Made by a program: the position numbers and the translations under genes | Shown: positions 2,690 through 10,909 of the stretch, piece after piece | Position numbering within the stretch: position 1 is the first letter of the stretch | Layout of the letters: the number at the start of each line of letters is the position of its first letter | Assembly (NCBI GenBank): GCA_016790075.1 | Contig: JAEUPP010000069.1 | Coordinates: 141,036-205,035 of the forward strand | Direction of reading: 5' to 3' | DNA: 64,000 nucleotides | Origin: Rhodanobacteraceae bacterium | Lineage (GTDB): Bacteria; Pseudomonadota; Gammaproteobacteria; Xanthomonadales; Rhodanobacteraceae | The notes under the pieces: generated by a model | Seen by the model: only the letters and a program-made list of their open reading frames with translations | Databases searched by the model: none | Told to the model about the DNA's origin: nothing

Positions 2690-4348
2690 TCAGCTGCGCA
2701 ACCTGCGCCGGATAGCGCTCATCGACACCCCCTCGTTGGCTTCATAAGTTCCCTCGCCATTGAGCCGCGGCGCTTCTGCCAACCCCGCGTGATGCAGGGC
2801 CATGACTTCCCAATCCGCATTGAACACAGGACTGCCCGAACTGCCGGGATCCGTGGGTGTCCGGTAGTGCACAAGGCGCTCCTGGTCGTCAATGTCCAGC
2901 AGCAAGCTGTCGTGAAGGGCGATCTGCAGGCCCGCGCCGCGCGGATGTCCGGCGACGAACGCCCTGGCCTTAGGACCAAGAAGGGGAAGATCGCGTGTGG
3001 CTTGTAGCACCGGCGCATCGCCCGGTAGGTCTCGGAGGCGGACGATTGTGCAATCGAGCATCTTCAACTCGTCGTTGCGTGCGCCGACCGGGCCGGGTTC
3101 CGACGTGAACAGAACTTCGCTCACGGCGTAGCGCGTCAGGTTGCCGGCAACCGGCGTATCGAGCTCGAACGTCACGCGGGCTTTGCCTGTGGGGATGGCA
3201 TTGGTGACCGTATCGCTGATCACGTGCGCGTTGGTGAGAAACACCGGACCAGCGCCATACACGGGCTTGAGCCAGGCGCCACTGAGCAAGAACCCGGTGC
3301 CCAGGCGTTCTCCGATGTCGTTCATGACGCAGCCCACCGACCTGAAGGCCGACAGCAGTGATCGGATCGAGTCCACGCTGAAGCTCGACTCGCCTAGGAA
3401 GTTTTTCTCCAGGCCTCGTTCGTCGTTCGCGAGCGCCGCCTGGATCGCCGGTACTTGCGAAGGAACCAACGTGATGCGCGCCTGCCGTTGGGCGCAGAAG
3501 TTGGCAATGATGCTCAGCAGGCGACCGGCGCAGACCACCGGCGACGTTGGATCCCCGCGCCAGATCTCACGCAGCTGCCGCGAGTAGCTGTCCAACTGGA
3601 ATCTCGTGGTGTCCTTCGACGACAACATCCGATACAGCCATAGCTCCGCGTCGTCGCAACGTCCCAAGGCCAGGCAGGCCTCGGAAGCAGTGGCGTAGGC
3701 CCAGGGGTCCGGTTTCGAGCGACAGCTTTCGACGACAGTCTCGAGGATCTTCCTGGCGAGATCATTGAAGTCGGGCAACGCCGGTCGCGGGATTCCGCCG
3801 CTCTGATGGAGCTCGAGATTGAGGCAGGCCAGCGCATTGATGCCATGCCAGTAGCTTTCAGGGGCACTGAGGTACTGGGCCAAATAGCGGTTGGTGGCGT
3901 CGACCAGGCTGTCAAGGTCATCGGTGTTATTTACGTAACGCTGTTTGGCGATCCGCCCCAACAGACCACGGAACTCTAGCAACTCCCGACGGTAGACAAT
4001 ATCGCCTGGGTGTTTCTCGCACACAGCGATAGCCTCGGTCGCCATGCTCTGCGCTTCGTCCAGCAGCGTCGTGTTGATCAGCGCCTGTACACGCCGCTTC
4101 TGCAGCACAGGATCGAAGCCCTTGCGCCCGTACCACGCCTTGGCAATGGCACGGGTCAGCTCGAAGTAGCAATTGTCGTTAAGTCGGGCGGCGGCATTGC
4201 GAGCCTGTTGGACACCGAGCGCGACAGCGCCCTGCTGGATCTCATCGACGATGAGCTGCGCACCTTTGGCCAGCAGCCAGTCACTGACGACCGGAAACCG
4301 GCCAGCCTTCAGATCGTGCGCTACCGCCTGTGCCGTGGTGGGTGTCAT
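2690..4348 (-). CDS. TPR/TRAFs-binding-like protein with C-terminal trypsin-like serine protease
   Basis: The protein is 552 aa. The first 300 residues are helical and TPR-like. The segments LLGRIAKQ and YWHGINALACL resemble the TRAFs-binding (DUF4071) repeats of the gene at 5540. The C-terminal 220 residues form a trypsin-fold domain: GTGFLLSG, His in FLTNAHVISD (about residue 369), Asp in LDCTIVRL (about 433) and the nucleophile in PGSSGSPVF (about 503), so the catalytic triad looks complete. No signal peptide is visible, so it is probably cytoplasmic. The start lies 3 bp after the stop of the hydrolase gene, so the two are co-transcribed. Such proteases in STAND/TIR loci are thought to cleave host or partner proteins on activation. 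The substrate is unknown. Confidence 0.85.
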   Translation of the reverse strand: MTPTTAQAVAHDLKAGRFPVVSDWLLAKGAQLIVDEIQQGAVALGVQQARNAAARLNDNCYFELTRAIAKAWYGRKGFDPVLQKRRVQALINTTLLDEAQSMATEAIAVCEKHPGDIVYRRELLEFRGLLGRIAKQRYVNNTDDLDSLVDATNRYLAQYLSAPESYWHGINALACLNLELHQSGGIPRPALPDFNDLARKILETVVESCRSKPDPWAYATASEACLALGRCDDAELWLYRMLSSKDTTRFQLDSYSRQLREIWRGDPTSPVVCAGRLLSIIANFCAQRQARITLVPSQVPAIQAALANDERGLEKNFLGESSFSVDSIRSLLSAFRSVGCVMNDIGERLGTGFLLSGAWLKPVYGAGPVFLTNAHVISDTVTNAIPTGKARVTFELDTPVAGNLTRYAVSEVLFTSEPGPVGARNDELKMLDCTIVRLRDLPGDAPVLQATRDLPLLGPKARAFVAGHPRGAGLQIALHDSLLLDIDDQERLVHYRTPTDPGSSGSPVFNADWEVMALHHAGLAEAPRLNGEGTYEANEGVSMSAIRRRLRS

Positions 4349-4351
4349 GCT

Positions 4352-5347
4352 TCAGAGGTCTAGCGCTTCCGTGAGCTTCGCCCGGAACTGGAGCCCCGCA
4401 AAGTAGTGCGTGATCGTGTGTCGCCACTTGCTCCAGTTCGACTCCTTAATGTCCTCGACGCTCTTGCCGTCGACCGGCTCAAAGTCGTTGGCGAATTTTG
4501 GGTCGGCGCCACAGATGGGATCCAGCGGGTCGTAGATGTTGATCCAGCGTGAAGTAGTGGCTGCCGGGAAGTCGTTCTTCTGCAGTCCTGGAGCGCGCAA
4601 CTCGACCTGTACTTCCTTGATGCCTAGCGGCGAACCCAACGTGATCAGGGTTTCCACTTTTGGACAATCCGCGCAATTGCGCAGCACATCATAGGCGACC
4701 ATGGTGCCCATGCTGTGCGAGACCACCACGAGTTTCTCGCCTTTCTCCGCTGCGGCCTTGAGCTTGTCGACCAGGCGCCTGCGCAGTTCGGATCGCACCT
4801 GGAAGTTGACGCCATCCTTGCGCGTGTACTCTTTGTCGAAGAGGAAGTAGTACGCCTCCATGGCTGCTTTCTTGATGATGGCCTCGCGCCAGGCTGCGGG
4901 CAGCAGTCCGGCGATTTCCGCTCCCGCGAGCGCCGCCGGGTTGATCCCCGGGGCTACTGGCGGCTCGGTGATCAGCTGGGAACTGAGCTCCGCCTCGAAC
5001 CTTGCCAGGAATGCCTGCTCCTCGGGGGTTACGGGAATGGGCGCTACTGGTGCCGGCTCATCGAGCTTGTCGGCCAGGATCTCGGCATCAGCACCGCGGC
5101 CCTCCGCTTCGAAGTACGAGGAGAAGTCGGTCTCGTAGTCGTCCGCGTAAAAGACGTCGGCGTAATAGTTGAGCTCGTGTGGCACGCCCTTGGTATAGAG
5201 ATTGATGCCCTTGTTGGGCGGGGCGAACACGTCAGGACGCGGGTTGTCACGGCTGATTCCCATGAGCCACAGCTCAAGCAGCTTGTCGGGAGGTGGCTTC
5301 TTCGCCAGGCCATGCACAAATACGACCGCGCTGCGTCTCTTTGGCAT
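4352..5347 (-). CDS. alpha/beta hydrolase (lipase/esterase-like), putative effector
   Basis: This 331-aa protein opens with a beta-strand and HG motif (AVVFVHGLAK). It carries a GxSxG-type elbow in VVVSHSMGT (Ser near residue 210), a GSPLG strand, an Asp-rich NIYDPLDPICG loop and a His in WRHTITHYF, so a Ser-Asp-His triad is plausible. The ATG at 5347 is preferred over an upstream in-frame start at 5377 because GGAGG lies 5 nt before it. There is no signal peptide. It is the first gene of a two-gene operon with the protease at 2690 and is divergent from the TRAFs-binding/TIR operon, with a 192-bp shared intergenic region. Family is clear; substrate is not. A phospholipase or esterase effector of the neighbouring system is inference. 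Confidence 0.8.
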   Translation of the reverse strand: MPKRRSAVVFVHGLAKKPPPDKLLELWLMGISRDNPRPDVFAPPNKGINLYTKGVPHELNYYADVFYADDYETDFSSYFEAEGRGADAEILADKLDEPAPVAPIPVTPEEQAFLARFEAELSSQLITEPPVAPGINPAALAGAEIAGLLPAAWREAIIKKAAMEAYYFLFDKEYTRKDGVNFQVRSELRRRLVDKLKAAAEKGEKLVVVSHSMGTMVAYDVLRNCADCPKVETLITLGSPLGIKEVQVELRAPGLQKNDFPAATTSRWINIYDPLDPICGADPKFANDFEPVDGKSVEDIKESNWSKWRHTITHYFAGLQFRAKLTEALDL

Positions 5348-5539
5348 GACAACCTCCAGTTTGTCAATTGTTTGCAATCAAGACATCGTTGAAACACGGA
5401 TCGTTTTTTATCACAACAAGACCGGAGAGAAACTGCGGGCGGCGTCGAACCACCCCGGTCATTTGAGCAATGATGTACTTTTTGCATCGCAACATACATT
5501 GCGGCGCACCGGTGAGTGGCCTCGTGTATGCTCTGGCGA

Positions 5540-6904
5540 ATGGCCAGTCCGCTGTGTTTCGTGCTCATGCCTTTCGGTGACAAGCCCGACCCCCTGGGTG
5601 GCCCACCGATCAACTTTGATCGCGTCTACGAAACGGGAATTCGCCCCGCCATAGAGCAAGCAGGCCTCGACCCGATCCGCGCGGACGAGGAGCGGACCGG
5701 CGGGATTATCCACAAGGCCATGTTCGAGCGATTGCTGCTATGTGAATTCGCTGTCGCCGATCTGACCTGCGCCAACGCAAACGTTTTCTACGAGCTTGGC
5801 GTGCGCCATGCCGTACGGCCTTCGACCACGGTGGTGATCTTCGGCAAGGGGCACATGCCGCCGTTCGATGTGAACTACGTGCGGGGCATGCCCTACGACC
5901 TGGGAGCGGGCAACGCCTTCACCAACGCGGTGGCGCAGGGCGTGCGTGATGCGCTGGCACAGCGATTGACCGAAATGCGTGAGCTGGCCGTGGGTACCGC
6001 AGTCACCGACAGCCCGCTGTTCCAGTTGCTGAGCGACTACGCCCCCCCCGACATAGCAAGGCTCAAGACCGACACGTTCCGCGATCGCATCCAGTACGCG
6101 GCCAGCGCCAAAGTCGCGTTGGCCGCAGCCCGGGAGAAGCGGGATACAGACGAACTCGCACGCGTCGAACGGAGTCTCGGCGCGCTGGACGGCGTGGAGG
6201 CCGGCGTTCTTGTCGACCTCTATCTATCGTATCGGGCTGTCTCCGCCTGGCAGCGAATGGTCGACCTGTATGCACGCATGCCCAAGTCTCTGCAATCCGT
6301 GGTGCTGGTGCGCGAGCAACTAGGCTTTGCTCTCAACCGCCTGGCACATCGCCCGGACGCGTTACGCGTGCTCGGCGAGGTCGAGGCACAGCACGGCGCG
6401 AGCTCGGAGACCTGCGGCCTCATCGGCCGTGTATACAAAGACCTTTGGGGAGATGCGAAGAATGCAGGCGACGAGGCATTGGCACTGGACAACCTGAGCA
6501 AGGCCATCGAGGCGTACTCGCGTGGCTTCGAGGCGGATTCGCGTGACGCATTTCCGGGTATCAATGCGGTAACGCTGCTCGACATCCGGGGAACAAGCGC
6601 CGCTCAGGAGAAGAAGGCGGAGCTGCTGCCAGTGGTGCGATTCGCGGTGCTGAAGCGAGTGCGTTCAGGCAAGTCGGACTACTGGGATCGCGCTACGCTG
6701 CTCGAACTTGCCGTACTTGAACGCGACGCAGACGCCGCCTGCGAACACCTGGCTGACGCCCGCGCCAACATGCGGGAGGCCTGGGAAGGCGAAACCACGG
6801 CCAATAACCTGATGCTGATCCGCGAGGCGCGCCAGACGCGTGGCGAGCACGAACCCTGGTTGGATGACATCATCCGCGCGCTTGATCCCAAGCGGCTCAT
6901 CTGA
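5540..6904 (+). CDS. Rossmann (deoxyribosyltransferase-like) plus TRAFs-binding/TPR protein (DUF4071)
   Basis: The protein is about 454 aa. The N-terminal 150 residues start with CFVLMPFG and contain an ADLT...NVFYELGVRHA motif. This pattern is typical of the nucleoside 2-deoxyribosyltransferase/TIR-like (DRHyd) fold and includes the conserved Glu. From about residue 180 onward it is helical, with TPR-like repeats (GLIGRVYKDLW, DAFPGINAVTLL) matching the MAP3K TRAFs-binding family PF13281, also found in animal ASK kinases. In-frame ATGs at 5528 and 5540 are both possible; 5540 gives the conserved MASPLCFVLMPFG start. The TIR gene follows 7 bp downstream. Likely role: sensor or scaffold with a nucleotide-binding or hydrolysing head. 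Enzyme activity is not proven by sequence. Confidence 0.82.
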   Translation: MASPLCFVLMPFGDKPDPLGGPPINFDRVYETGIRPAIEQAGLDPIRADEERTGGIIHKAMFERLLLCEFAVADLTCANANVFYELGVRHAVRPSTTVVIFGKGHMPPFDVNYVRGMPYDLGAGNAFTNAVAQGVRDALAQRLTEMRELAVGTAVTDSPLFQLLSDYAPPDIARLKTDTFRDRIQYAASAKVALAAAREKRDTDELARVERSLGALDGVEAGVLVDLYLSYRAVSAWQRMVDLYARMPKSLQSVVLVREQLGFALNRLAHRPDALRVLGEVEAQHGASSETCGLIGRVYKDLWGDAKNAGDEALALDNLSKAIEAYSRGFEADSRDAFPGINAVTLLDIRGTSAAQEKKAELLPVVRFAVLKRVRSGKSDYWDRATLLELAVLERDADAACEHLADARANMREAWEGETTANNLMLIREARQTRGEHEPWLDDIIRALDPKRLI

Positions 6905-6911
6905 GGCACGC

Positions 6912-8363
6912 ATGACTTTGCCGACGTTCAAGGTCTTCCTGAGTCACCGCTACAGGTCGCCCGACGTCAACCGCTTTTTCTTCGAGTTGTTCGCGCGACA
7001 GGCTCTGTTGCAGTTCGAGGTCGACGATGGCGTGACGTATCTGCCAAAGAGCGCCGGCGGCGCCGTGCAGGGCATTCCCACCAACGTGACACGGCTCGAA
7101 CGCATTGTGCGCGCCGCGGATGCGTTCATCGGCATCTATCCGATCTCCGTGAACGCGACCGATTCGCCGAATCCGGATCAACTGAAACTGGAGTCGCGCT
7201 ACTTCCGCCTCGAGCTCGATCTGGCGCTGCGCGCCCGCAAGCCAGCGCTTGTGTTCTTCGACCAACGCTACAAGGCGCAACTGGCTTGCCCCTCTGGCGT
7301 GTTGTCGCACAGCTTCGACGCGCAGGAGGCCGTACCAGGCCAGCAGACGCCTAGTTCCGCGGCGTTCGACAAGGTATTCGCAGACTTCTGCACGCGCGTC
7401 AGCGCCTCGATGTCCTACCGTACGCTGAGCAGCGCGTCCGCTCGCAGCGGACGCGTCGGCGTCCTCTTGCCGCAAGCCGAGAGTCCCGGCGGATATACCG
7501 ACGAACATATCCGCTCGATCGAGGAGGCGCTGAGCGACAGCGACTACATGCCGGTGCGGATGCGCTGGCCGCCCGTGCTGGGCCGTGAACTGCTGACGGA
7601 ATGCGCGGAGCTCGATTTCCTCGTGGTGGACGTCGGTGATGATCCGATTTCCGCCGCCACGGTGTCGTTCCTGCATGGTCGCTTCATTCCGGCGCTGAGG
7701 CTGCGACGCCTGGACGCAGACGCGCCTCAAGTCTCGCAGCTCGAACACATCCTGTTTGGCTCGGTGACCGCCGGCTATCTCAAGGACGTGGTCCGCTGGT
7801 CGAGGAAGGAAGAACTCGACGCCGGCATCCGCGCTCGCATCCAGGTGATCGACCTGCCGCCCAGACGCATCTCCACGGCCGCGCAGGCCAACGAGTACTT
7901 CGTACGCAGCAGCAAGCGACCGGTAAACATCTTCCTCAGCTACTGCGGCCGCGACAGCAACGTCGCCGCCCGCATCAGCGAGTCATTGGTAAAGCGGTTC
8001 CAGAAGGTATTCAACTACAAGGACGGCACGTCGATCGAGCCCGGCAGCCCATGGCTGGCGCAGATTTTCGATCAACTGGCGACATCCTCGGTGGCGATCC
8101 CGCTGATATCGGATGACTACTTCAAGAGTGGCAATTGCGAGCACGAAGCGCGCGAAATTATCGCGCGACGCGACAACCAGAGCTTGCATGTCATTCCCGT
8201 AAAACTGAAACCCCAGGTGACCGTTCCCAACTGGTTCGCCGACATTCAAAGCGAGCGGCTGTTCGCCACCAACCAGGATGCCGAGGCACTGGCCGAGTCC
8301 ATCGTTGCGCTGGTCGACAAGCGTCGCACGGAGGCCGCGCCCACCGCCGGCATTTCGACCTGA
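6912..8363 (+). CDS. TIR-domain protein with two additional TIR/DRHyd-like folds
   Basis: The protein is 483 aa; the ATG at 6912 is the second gene of the operon, 7 bp after the previous stop. The C-terminal domain (about residues 336-460) is a clear TIR: it begins VNIFLSYCGRD and carries the Glu of SGNCEHEAREI, in the place of the TIR NADase catalytic Glu (near residue 405). The N-terminal 140 residues also begin in TIR style (KVFLSHRY) and include ESRYFRLELDLAL followed by a hydrophobic strand. Residues about 180-270 form a third alternating strand/helix unit (GRVGVLLPQ, LDFLVVDVGDD). Bacterial TIR proteins commonly consume NAD+ or make cyclic ADP-ribose signals during antiphage responses. 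That role here is inference from the family and the neighbours. Confidence 0.85.
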   Translation: MTLPTFKVFLSHRYRSPDVNRFFFELFARQALLQFEVDDGVTYLPKSAGGAVQGIPTNVTRLERIVRAADAFIGIYPISVNATDSPNPDQLKLESRYFRLELDLALRARKPALVFFDQRYKAQLACPSGVLSHSFDAQEAVPGQQTPSSAAFDKVFADFCTRVSASMSYRTLSSASARSGRVGVLLPQAESPGGYTDEHIRSIEEALSDSDYMPVRMRWPPVLGRELLTECAELDFLVVDVGDDPISAATVSFLHGRFIPALRLRRLDADAPQVSQLEHILFGSVTAGYLKDVVRWSRKEELDAGIRARIQVIDLPPRRISTAAQANEYFVRSSKRPVNIFLSYCGRDSNVAARISESLVKRFQKVFNYKDGTSIEPGSPWLAQIFDQLATSSVAIPLISDDYFKSGNCEHEAREIIARRDNQSLHVIPVKLKPQVTVPNWFADIQSERLFATNQDAEALAESIVALVDKRRTEAAPTAGIST

Positions 8364-8768: not shown

Positions 8769-10781
8769 TTACGGTGCGGGCGTAATGCCGATGGCGCTGA
8801 ACAGCTTGGCGCTGTCATAGCGGCGGTCGCCGCGGATCACTGTGCGCACCTTGCGGATGTCCGCCATGTTCAGGGTCGGGTCGCCGTCGACCAGGATCAG
8901 GTCGGCGACGTAACCGGGCGCCAAGCGGCCGTATTCCTTGTCGCGCTTCATGACCAACGCCGAATCGTAGGTCGCCGTGCGCAGCGCGTCCTTGGGCGAA
9001 ATGCCGGCAGCGACATAGAGCTCAAGCTCGCGCGGAATCTGCAGACCGCCGGAACCGTCGGTGCCAGCAACGATGCGCACGCCGCTGCGATGCAGCAGGC
9101 CTACGAAATCGATCATGCGCTGATAGCCGTCGCGATAGGCCGCTTCCTGGCCAGGTTTGATCGGCAGGCCGCCGCCGCCGGAACGGATGCCACGCTGCCA
9201 GGTCAGCGGCAGGCGCGTCATGATCGCGGCAAAACCCGGGCCGGGCAGGCCGGGCCGGCCCAGGAACATGTCCTCGAACGTGCTCAGGGTTGGATCGATC
9301 ACGATGTTGCGCTGCTTGAGCAGGGTCACAAAGTCGCGTACCGCCGGCGTGCCCAGATCAATACCCGCGCCGTACTCGCCGATAGCGGTGAAGCGCGCCG
9401 GTGTGCGCGTGTCCTGCACCTTGTCGTAAAGGAAGTTCAGCATCAGCATGTTGGCATGCTGTATCTCTTCGGCGCCGTTCTCGACGAACTGGCGCGCGGT
9501 CATGTAGGCGGGCACATGACCGCTGACGCGCAAGCCCTTTGCATGCGCCATGCGCGCGATCACCGGCATCAGCTCGGGCTTTATGGAACTGTAAATTTTA
9601 ATTTGTTCATGACCGCTCGCGGCGTATTCGTCGACGATGCGTTGGGCATCGGCTTCATTGTCGGCCAGCGCCTTGGTCGGCCCGGCAAACGGCCCCGGGC
9701 CATCGATGATGCCGGCCTTGATGATGCGCGGTCCTATATCGCGCCCGGCTTCAATCGCTGCAATGCGCTCGGCCAGCACCGGCGGATTGTTGGCGAGGTC
9801 GCGTACTGTCGTAACACCTCCGGCGATGTCGAGCACACCGTCGGCCTGGCCGAAGAAATGCGCGTGCATGTCCCAGAGACCGGGCATCAGGAACTTGCCA
9901 CCACCATCGAGTATTTCTGCATCGGCCGGTGTAGCCACCTCCGCCGCTTTGCCGCTCGCCGCGATACGGCCCTTGTCGACCAGCACGGCGGCGTCCTCCA
10001 GCACGACGCCCGTAGCGGGATCGAAGGCACGTACATTGCGAATCAGCAGTGGACGCTTGAGTGTTTCGGTCAGCGCCTTGGCACGCTGCTGCGCCTGCTG
10101 TTGCTGCTGCGCGTCCTGGGTCTTGCCCAACAGCGGCAGCACATCGGCATAACCTTCGCGGATCAGCGACGACCAGCTCGAATAATCCGCAAAAAAGCGC
10201 TGCTGCTCATCAAGCCAAAGATAGCCTGGCGTCAGATCAAGACCGTGAATCGCATACAGCGCGACCTTCTTCTTGCCGGGCTTGCCCTTGACCTGCAGCT
10301 CGGTGAGTTTCTCAATACGCGCTTCGCCGGCCGGCAATATGGCCAGCCTCTGCTGCGGCGATTTGAGCAGGGCGCGAGCCAGCAGCACGCTTTCTTCGGG
10401 TGTGCCGTTGAGGCTCAGGTAGAACGCCGGCTGCTCGACACTACGCGTTTCGCTTTCCGATGCGTTCTTCCAGCTGACGCTATTCCCTTCACGGGTCAGC
10501 GTCTCGTCGACCGGGCCCTTGAAGTAGTCATTGCCCTTGTTCGTGGCCGCGCTCACCAGACCGTCGGCGGCGACATGGTATTCGGAATCAAGCTTGGGGC
10601 CACGACCCCGGTCGTTGAATTCGTAGTGCACACGAATGCTGCCGTCGTCGGCATAGCGCGCCTCGTGAAAACCCGCCTTGGCACCCATGGTTATGACGTC
10701 ACTGCGTTCGACCTGTTCGGCCGCCGCGACGGCTGCACCGATGCCAAACAGCAGTGCGCCCAGCAAGAATCTGAGTCTCAT
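8769..10781 (-). CDS. secreted amidohydrolase-family protein
   Basis: The protein is 670 aa from the ATG at 10781, which has GGGAGGATGCG just upstream and begins a signal peptide (FLLGALLFGIGAAVAAA). The first 270 residues are a lipoprotein-like or beta-rich segment without an obvious family. The C-terminal 400 residues form an amidohydrolase TIM barrel: the first metal-binding strand carries HxH in LWDMHAHFFG, further histidines lie in SGHVPAY and EEIQHANML, and the late metal Asp is in RIVAGTDGSG. The C-terminal composite strand ends in GYVADLILVDGDP, as in imidazolonepropionase-like enzymes. The location is probably periplasmic. Substrate is unknown; a peptide or amide hydrolase such as a prolidase-like enzyme is possible. 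Confidence 0.85.
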   Translation of the reverse strand: MRLRFLLGALLFGIGAAVAAAEQVERSDVITMGAKAGFHEARYADDGSIRVHYEFNDRGRGPKLDSEYHVAADGLVSAATNKGNDYFKGPVDETLTREGNSVSWKNASESETRSVEQPAFYLSLNGTPEESVLLARALLKSPQQRLAILPAGEARIEKLTELQVKGKPGKKKVALYAIHGLDLTPGYLWLDEQQRFFADYSSWSSLIREGYADVLPLLGKTQDAQQQQQAQQRAKALTETLKRPLLIRNVRAFDPATGVVLEDAAVLVDKGRIAASGKAAEVATPADAEILDGGGKFLMPGLWDMHAHFFGQADGVLDIAGGVTTVRDLANNPPVLAERIAAIEAGRDIGPRIIKAGIIDGPGPFAGPTKALADNEADAQRIVDEYAASGHEQIKIYSSIKPELMPVIARMAHAKGLRVSGHVPAYMTARQFVENGAEEIQHANMLMLNFLYDKVQDTRTPARFTAIGEYGAGIDLGTPAVRDFVTLLKQRNIVIDPTLSTFEDMFLGRPGLPGPGFAAIMTRLPLTWQRGIRSGGGGLPIKPGQEAAYRDGYQRMIDFVGLLHRSGVRIVAGTDGSGGLQIPRELELYVAAGISPKDALRTATYDSALVMKRDKEYGRLAPGYVADLILVDGDPTLNMADIRKVRTVIRGDRRYDSAKLFSAIGITPAP

Positions 10782-10909
10782 CGCATCCTCCCGGTCAATT
10801 CCTTCAGTCTGAACCGGACAATCCTGCGCCAGCGCGTGCCGTAAGCTGGGTGGCCATGCGCCAGAAGGGCCGCCAGTTGCGGCGAACTGCGGCAAGCGGG
10901 TGGCATGCC

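Follow-up and report, generated by a model that had tools for sequence, protein, structure and literature searches.

The systems closest to the locus described here are the TPR-S conflict systems, a class reportedly predicted by Burroughs and Aravind in 2020, from whom the Pfam family TPR-S (PF20308, 'Tetratricopeptide Repeats-Sensor') is also said to come. The locus is a divergent block of four genes (P0001-P0004) in the window, a stretch of 64,000 nucleotides from a Rhodanobacteraceae bacterium (GenBank assembly GCA_016790075.1, contig JAEUPP010000069.1, positions 141,036 to 205,035), and it lies beside a pair of TIR and nSTAND1 genes (P0006 and P0005). It is most likely a variant of this already predicted class, and the block most likely serves as a cell-suicide defence against viruses. 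Like the TPR-S systems, the window has TPR-S domains, parts of the TIR/DRHyd type and an effector fused to TPR-S: a TIR protein is encoded in the operon of P0003 (P0004), a trypsin-like protease is fused to TPR-S (P0001) and a hydrolase is encoded beside it (P0002). It appears to differ from those systems in the combination of a TPR-S-trypsin protein and a separate hydrolase, divergent from a DRHyd-TPR-S gene and a TIR gene and beside a TIR-nSTAND1 pair. The initial annotation of this DNA could name no system made up of exactly these parts; indeed no report of a bacterial defence system with these genes was among the papers listed by the full-text searches (subscription papers were outside their scope), but the class as such was reportedly predicted in 2020.

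Other described systems share single features with the block. P0003 resembles the regulatory head of human ASK1 (MAP3K5) in that an alpha/beta N-terminal domain is followed by TPR-S, but it has no Pfam match to the PH or Ser/Thr kinase domain, and the genes around it in the bacterium encode a protease, a lipase-like enzyme and TIR enzymes. In the nuclease-protease pairs of Hachiman, AVAST and other systems (PMC12799240), a trypsin activates a proenzyme nuclease that is usually encoded directly upstream. The block is similar in the fusion of a trypsin-like protease to a defence domain, in the putative effector gene directly upstream and in repeated acquisition, and different in that P0002 is an alpha/beta hydrolase and not a nuclease of the metallo-beta-lactamase (MBL) fold, its cleavage being only predicted. 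In the VMAP ternary systems, according to Kaur et al. 2020 (PMC7159879), a hydrolase occurs with caspase and a trypsin with Trypco, and the two arrangements are mutually exclusive; here too a hydrolase is paired with a protease, but it goes with trypsin. VMAP membership was rejected, with no match to a MoxR ATPase or vWA domain in P0001-P0006, the proteins scanned. The TIR protein of the locus weakly matches ThsB of Thoeris (PADLOC, 9.5e-7); membership in Thoeris was rejected for lack of a ThsA match (SIR2-SLOG or macro) in the same six proteins (P0006 without the NCBIfam scan), and AVAST and CBASS were rejected for lack of a convincing PADLOC match in P0001-P0006. A study of Arcobacter cryaerophilus from New Zealand mussels (PMC6690266), the species and source of the plasmid in L052, mentions DUF4071 once.

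The four genes are real and lie where the initial annotation had placed them (Table 1), the open reading frames (ORFs) agreeing with its coordinates and with the gaps of 3 bp between P0001 and P0002, 192 bp between the divergent starts of P0002 and P0003, and 7 bp between P0003 and P0004. Its proposal that genes of TIR, TRAFs-binding, protease and hydrolase type here make up a conflict or immune module is supported. In Pfam, P0001 matches Trypsin_2 (2e-15) and TPR-S (3e-9), P0002 a PGAP1-like alpha/beta hydrolase (3e-6), and P0003 both MAP3K_TRAF_bd (5.5e-38) and TPR-S (2e-23). The annotation had spoken of two TPR-type scaffolds; it had missed that TPR-S is one family common to P0001 and P0003, with bit scores (37.9 and 83.4, respectively) above the Pfam cut-off of 27.6.

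Table 1. Features of the block and its neighbours (coordinates in the window unless stated otherwise).
Feature	Coordinates	Strand	Description	Basis
P0001	2690..4348	-	552 aa; TPR-S domain 79-176 fused to trypsin-like protease 350-518	Pfam
P0002	4352..5347	-	331 aa; alpha/beta hydrolase (PGAP1/LCAT-like), directly upstream of P0001	Pfam
Divergent intergenic region	5348..5539		192 bp separating the two operons	gene coordinates
P0003	5540..6904	+	454 aa; N-terminal Rossmann-like domain and TPR-S / MAP3K TRAFs-binding domain	Pfam
P0004	6912..8363	+	483 aa; canonical TIR 340-460 with Glu412, divergent TIR-like stretch 4-111
P0005	1..2409	+	nSTAND1 NTPase; truncated 5' at the edge of the window	Pfam
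P0006	contig C70:139369-140922 = L002:11370-12923, outside the window		517 aa; TIR gene preceding P0005

The only convincing relatives of P0003 by sequence in the PDB are chains of human ASK1 (5ulm, 3.2e-6 in phmmer, and 8qgy, 4.9e-6). An AlphaFold2 model of P0003, calculated from a 67-row alignment that includes 66 of the 80 relatives surveyed below, has a mean predicted local distance difference test score (pLDDT) of 90.5, and in a Foldseek search of the PDB with this model the first four matches were all ASK1. The match to 8qgy has an E value of 3.7e-9, with 505 columns including gaps on a query of 454 residues and a root-mean-square deviation of 15.6; for 5ulm the template modelling (TM) score is 0.55-0.56 by target length. 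Since ASK1 chains are the best matches in both sequence and predicted fold, the domains of P0003 appear to be arranged as in the ASK1 head, where a thioredoxin-binding domain is followed by TPRs (PMC10972558). Within its own order P0003 is isolated: none of 150 other genomes has a close relative, 12 match at E <= 0.001, and the best match reaches 39% identity over residues 6-175. The N-terminal domain shows alpha/beta secondary structure in the AlphaFold2 model, is matched by the PADLOC TIR-effector model at 28-119 (3.1e-7), and carries Glu85 in 79 of 81 rows, the other two having an Ala and a gap, and Asp74 and Arg47 in 80 of 81. By its motif, we take this domain to be DRHyd/NDT-like, with Glu85 presumably the catalytic residue of that type; the DRHyd label thus combines the motif with the secondary structure, the PADLOC match and Glu85.

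Relatives of P0003 were collected by a five-row profile scan of genome contigs, and the best 80 of 168 were taken as the P0003-type loci; they share 48-62% identity with P0003 and come from many phyla, the P0003-type ORF was recovered in all 80, and the catalytic residues are conserved, so that the block is more than a chance assembly. A second TPR-S gene lies within 10 kb of the P0003-type gene in 22 of the 80 loci, within 5 kb in 19 and within 600 bp in 14, as counted by a TPR-S hidden Markov model (HMM) that misses L100, L113, L131 and L144. Per 100 kb, TPR-S genes number 2.9 within 5 kb and 0.6 beyond, TIR genes 6.2 and 1.8 (27 of the 80 loci have a TIR gene within 5 kb), nSTAND genes 0.9 and 0.4, and trypsin genes 0.5 and 0.2, the last from only 3 and 1 genes. 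Different effector domains are joined to this second TPR-S gene. The neighbours within 5 kb were grouped by single-linkage BLAST, with Pfam applied to representatives only (hydrolase L071, L075, L129 and L085; patatin L110; CHAT L131, with TPR-S scoring under the cut-off). This gave an alpha/beta-hydrolase-TPR-S cluster in 11 loci, TPR-S-patatin in 6, CHAT-TPR-S in 4, and a mixed STAND/FGE cluster in 12, which is possibly chained by FGE-sulfatase domains (both of the two members checked have FGE), so that the counts of P0005-like matches, 5 of 80 loci by BLAST and 6 of 80 by HMM within 10 kb, are preferred for the STAND genes. At L153 (11117-16783) a single ORF of 1888 residues joins DUF7379, LCAT, the caspase-like CHAT and TPR-S, and this fusion supports a hydrolase, a protease and TPR-S as one working unit. 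A SLATT gene with two transmembrane segments (2TM) lies beside the P0003 homologue of L050.

Near the P0003-type gene of L050 (5463-9874) Pfam also finds a TIR-TGT fusion, an OGG-type glycosylase, QueC, a ThsB-like TIR and a PfkB kinase. A similar set occurs at L051, L053, L103, L108 and L144 by annotation or BLAST cluster (the TIR-TGT of L103 was checked by Pfam, and PfkB is not seen in all), and we take it to resemble the accessory set of type IV CBASS, apart from the TIR-TGT fusion. The stretches of L050, L051 and L053, where hypothetical genes were scanned only in part, carry no annotated CD-NTase.

By alignment, the active sites of P0001 and P0002 are intact: His375, Asp432 and Ser506 of P0001 are kept in nine of nine rows (P0001 included), and Ser212 (in SHSMG), Asp273, Asp276 and His310 of P0002 are invariant in eight of eight. 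In a sample of 340 genomes of the class, P0001 has strong relatives outside the window only in G275 and G344, both of which hold a full-length P0003-type gene, at the same locus in G275 and on another contig in G344, so that no linkage can be read from the latter. A P0002 relative in L062 has no adjoining trypsin gene (one is annotated 7.7 kb away), and another, in L064, adjoins a gene annotated as CHAT. In Sinorhizobium C101 (L063:7581-9244) TPR and trypsin are two overlapping ORFs; K101 (L058) has a single ORF.

The same gene set is found elsewhere, so that the four-gene idea stands against the lack of co-occurrence in other genomes by which, according to the initial annotation, it would have failed. 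In Billgrantia montanilacus (L090) a hydrolase and a TPR-S-trypsin gene on one strand are divergent from genes for a TIR-TPR protein (940 aa) and a DRHyd-TPR-S protein, as in the window, with the order of the last two reversed. In a gammaproteobacterial metagenome-assembled genome (L091, apparently the same genome as G275, with the same ORF) hydrolase, TPR-S-trypsin and TIR genes stand in a row and DRHyd-TPR-S follows ~4 kb further, all four within ~10 kb. At L076 a TPR-S-trypsin gene lies 4.3 kb from the P0003-type gene, and no P0002-type hydrolase was found there. All three of these trypsin-linked loci come from the scan anchored on P0003; the fourth is the window. In a 90-row tree of P0003-type proteins the four trypsin-linked rows fall in four places, and their grouping as a single clade is rejected by the approximately unbiased (AU) test (p = 1.9e-4); the bootstrap had not settled, the outgroup rows are long, and the group was named after the loci had been seen. 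This scatter and the rejection of a single clade suggest that separate P0003 lineages acquired the trypsin partner on more than one occasion. To place the four effector kinds on the 23 labelled rows, at least 9 changes are required, a count set only against the least possible (3) without a shuffled control; L108 (two kinds) and L080, L105 and L114 (no assigned effector) were left unlabelled. A fixed system of four genes, however, was rejected: TPR-S-trypsin is present within 10 kb in 3 of the 80 loci (L076, L090 and L091), P0002-type hydrolase in 2 (L090 and L091), and the hydrolase/TPR-S-trypsin pair also occurs in genomes without a P0003-type gene (below). The two halves of the block are, as gene content tells, separable.

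P0004 had been called a multi-TIR protein. A canonical TIR is present at 340-460 (a single Pfam match, TIR_2, 1.2e-16), and the stretch 4-111 is a divergent TIR-like one (hhalign E 1.4e-4, probability 52%, with 0.1-0.3% for three control segments), but no TIR signal was obtained by hhalign in the middle part. Glu412, which we take to be the TIR catalytic residue, falls in a column with Glu in 63 of 64 rows (one gap) of a TIR set picked by HMM from our own seeds, P0004 among them. P0004 as a conserved family was rejected, with no plasmid match at 1e-5 and, in the 340 class genomes (its own included), only short C-terminal TIR matches in 6 others. The nSTAND1 NTPase reported beside the block is there (P0005, Pfam 4e-78), but the annotation had missed its truncation by the window edge, the upstream TIR gene P0006 and a counterpart in L129. 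The likely ATG of P0005, as inferred from the ORFs, overlaps the stop codon of P0006, and residues 218-298 of P0006 weakly match DUF4062 (2.6e-4, below the cut-off), reported in a 2026 preprint (PMC13174449) as a TIR-like NADase in phage defence. At L129 (Chlorobiaceae) one array holds a TIR gene like P0006 (2.5e-25), an nSTAND1 gene like P0005 (3.5e-100), a hydrolase-TPR-S gene and a DRHyd-TPR-S gene; this counterpart, the only P0006 match among the 80 loci, suggests from gene order that the TIR-nSTAND1 operon of the window belongs to the module.

Taken together, we tentatively read the locus as an immune module centred on TPR-S and gated by a signal derived from nicotinamide adenine dinucleotide (NAD), which would kill or arrest the infected cell; as a whole this reading falls somewhat short of an even prospect. 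An infection cue would most likely be perceived by the TIR-nSTAND1 pair next door, by P0004 with its TIR, or by both. The TIR domains, with their conserved Glu, and possibly the DRHyd-like domain of P0003 would make a soluble signal out of NAD or a nucleotide. The TPR-S domains, observed in both linked proteins and of one family with the regulatory TPRs of human ASK1, would bind this putative ligand or one another and so bring P0003 and P0001 together. Assembly may switch on the protease domain that P0001 carries beside its TPR-S, the trypsin triad being present, and the protease could then cleave and unleash P0002, paired with it and with its active site in place, to attack membrane lipids. 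The 11 loci in which a hydrolase, not necessarily of the P0002 family, is fused directly to TPR-S suggest that the output of the module lies in the hydrolase and that the trypsin may be a relay placed before it. Membranes are proposed as the target by analogy with the patatin and SLATT partners. Activation by a protease may not be confined to nuclease effectors but may also apply to lipase-like ones, with effectors being swapped around a DRHyd-TPR-S partner.

In a narrower form, the locus would be a bacterial equivalent of the ASK1 signalosome and would run a proteolytic lipase cascade, in which a NAD-derived messenger made by TIR/DRHyd acts through TPR-S on the trypsin, and the trypsin on an alpha/beta-hydrolase zymogen, ending in membrane breakage; in this full form we consider it unlikely. 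If true, protease-activated effector pairs would include, in addition to the known nuclease pairs, a second class made up of hydrolase and trypsin, a departure from the VMAP rule by which the hydrolase goes with caspase and the trypsin with Trypco. The compact locus would also serve for testing the predicted bacterial origin of ASK1 regulation, and with it whether TPR-S binds a NAD-derived molecule.

The NAD-gated module is favoured by the presence of TPR-S in both P0001 and P0003, by the crowding of second TPR-S genes with varying effectors and of TIR genes around P0003-type genes, by the layout of L090, by the P0003-type genes in the genomes of both strong P0001 relatives, by the ASK1-like fold of P0003, by the intact catalytic residues, by the precedent of the nuclease-protease pairs and by the recurrence of membrane-directed partners. 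The pairing of hydrolase and protease also speaks for it: the P0002 profile matched 18 genomes at E <= 1e-8 in a sample of 398 genomes of the phylum, and the three with E < 1e-90 (the window, G607 and G882) all have the hydrolase gene followed directly by TPR-S-trypsin, against none of the 15 with weaker matches (one has a trypsin-like gene 2.7 kb off), but six of the eight profile rows are from paired loci, which biases it towards paired matches. Other observations weigh against the module. Neither G607 nor G882 has a P0003-type gene, the match in G882 falling inside its TPR-S-trypsin gene. The same holds for the rhizobial plasmid locus L058, where a TIR-nSTAND1 fusion protein (L058:9485-13753, Pfam) directly follows the hydrolase/TPR-S-trypsin pair. 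On the rhizobial plasmids L059-L061 a hydrolase-trypsin pair has no TIR or P0003-type gene detected nearby, and TPR-S is absent or only marginal by the HMM. A second TPR-S gene is not found by the HMM in 58 of the 80 P0003-type loci (54 with the four missed members of the BLAST clusters), many contigs ending early, TPR-S-trypsin is as rare there as given above, and P0002-type hydrolases number 0.2 per 100 kb both near the P0003-type gene and beyond (1 and 1 genes), without enrichment. The predicted structure of P0002 is poor (pLDDT 56, with residues 64-183 at low confidence), too weak for a lid or gate over the active site to be read from it.

Alternatively, the island would hold two or three independent defence modules (TIR-nSTAND1, hydrolase/TPR-S-trypsin, and DRHyd-TPR-S/TIR), each acting by itself and with TPR-S common by descent only, an explanation we find somewhat unlikely. 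It agrees with the pairs of G607 and G882, with the lack of hydrolase enrichment, with plasmids L055-L057, where distant P0003 relatives are followed by a TIR gene and no P0001 or P0002 homologue was found, and with a break in synteny at position 8769 against the congener G012, as expected of an accessory island. It does not explain why second TPR-S genes are concentrated beside P0003-type genes with swapped effectors, why L090 has the four genes in the same divergent arrangement, or why the genomes with strong P0001 relatives (G275 and G344) also hold a P0003-type gene.

The nature of the signal is the second point of doubt. Residues 1-81 of P0003 fall outside every Pfam match, and the profile of its N-terminal domain has no hhalign match to the TIR profile. 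The reading of a NAD-derived signal by TPR-S is itself a published prediction. In known systems STAND and TIR domains form oligomers, and TPR-S could be a protein-protein adaptor as in ASK1, with an oligomerised TIR/STAND platform recruiting P0001 without a small-molecule signal and with TIR as a scaffold or executioner NADase. The ASK1 TPR region is described (PMC10972558) as an interaction platform for interdomain docking, and on this analogy a protein ligand for TPR-S is as possible as a NAD-derived signal. The adaptor as a full explanation, which is compatible with the protease-hydrolase step of the NAD-gated module, we likewise find somewhat unlikely; a pure scaffold would not need the conserved TIR catalytic Glu and Glu85 of P0003.

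A stress-response or regulatory role, not directed at phages, we consider very unlikely. Many of the 80 loci are named as environmental bacteria, ASK1 offers the parallel of a general stress sensor, and no phage assay of such a system was among the papers listed by the literature searches, but a patchwork of TIR, STAND, protease and phospholipase parts whose effectors are exchanged, carried by plasmids and accessory DNA, is typical of conflict systems.

With regard to the genomic setting, synteny with G012 stops right after the block, and upstream of this point no match longer than 150 bp was found in the stretch compared except a 175-bp piece; the block is therefore probably accessory DNA at a rearranged site, as judged from this comparison. 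In G012 a TPR-S-trypsin gene is located elsewhere (L162), and no P0003-type gene was found. The GC content of the block is indistinct from that of the first 16 kb of the window, and a scan of 5200-5700 gave no sigma-70-like or terminator-like match in the divergent gap. The 175-bp piece, located ~20 kb upstream (contig C70:129074-129248), is similar to the amidohydrolase gene bordering the block (8769-10895), and the two may be the end marks of an inserted island. Upstream of the TIR-nSTAND1 operon, L002:2586-7439 encodes a protein of 1617 residues that, read by eye, is RHS-repeat-like with a ParB-like tail.

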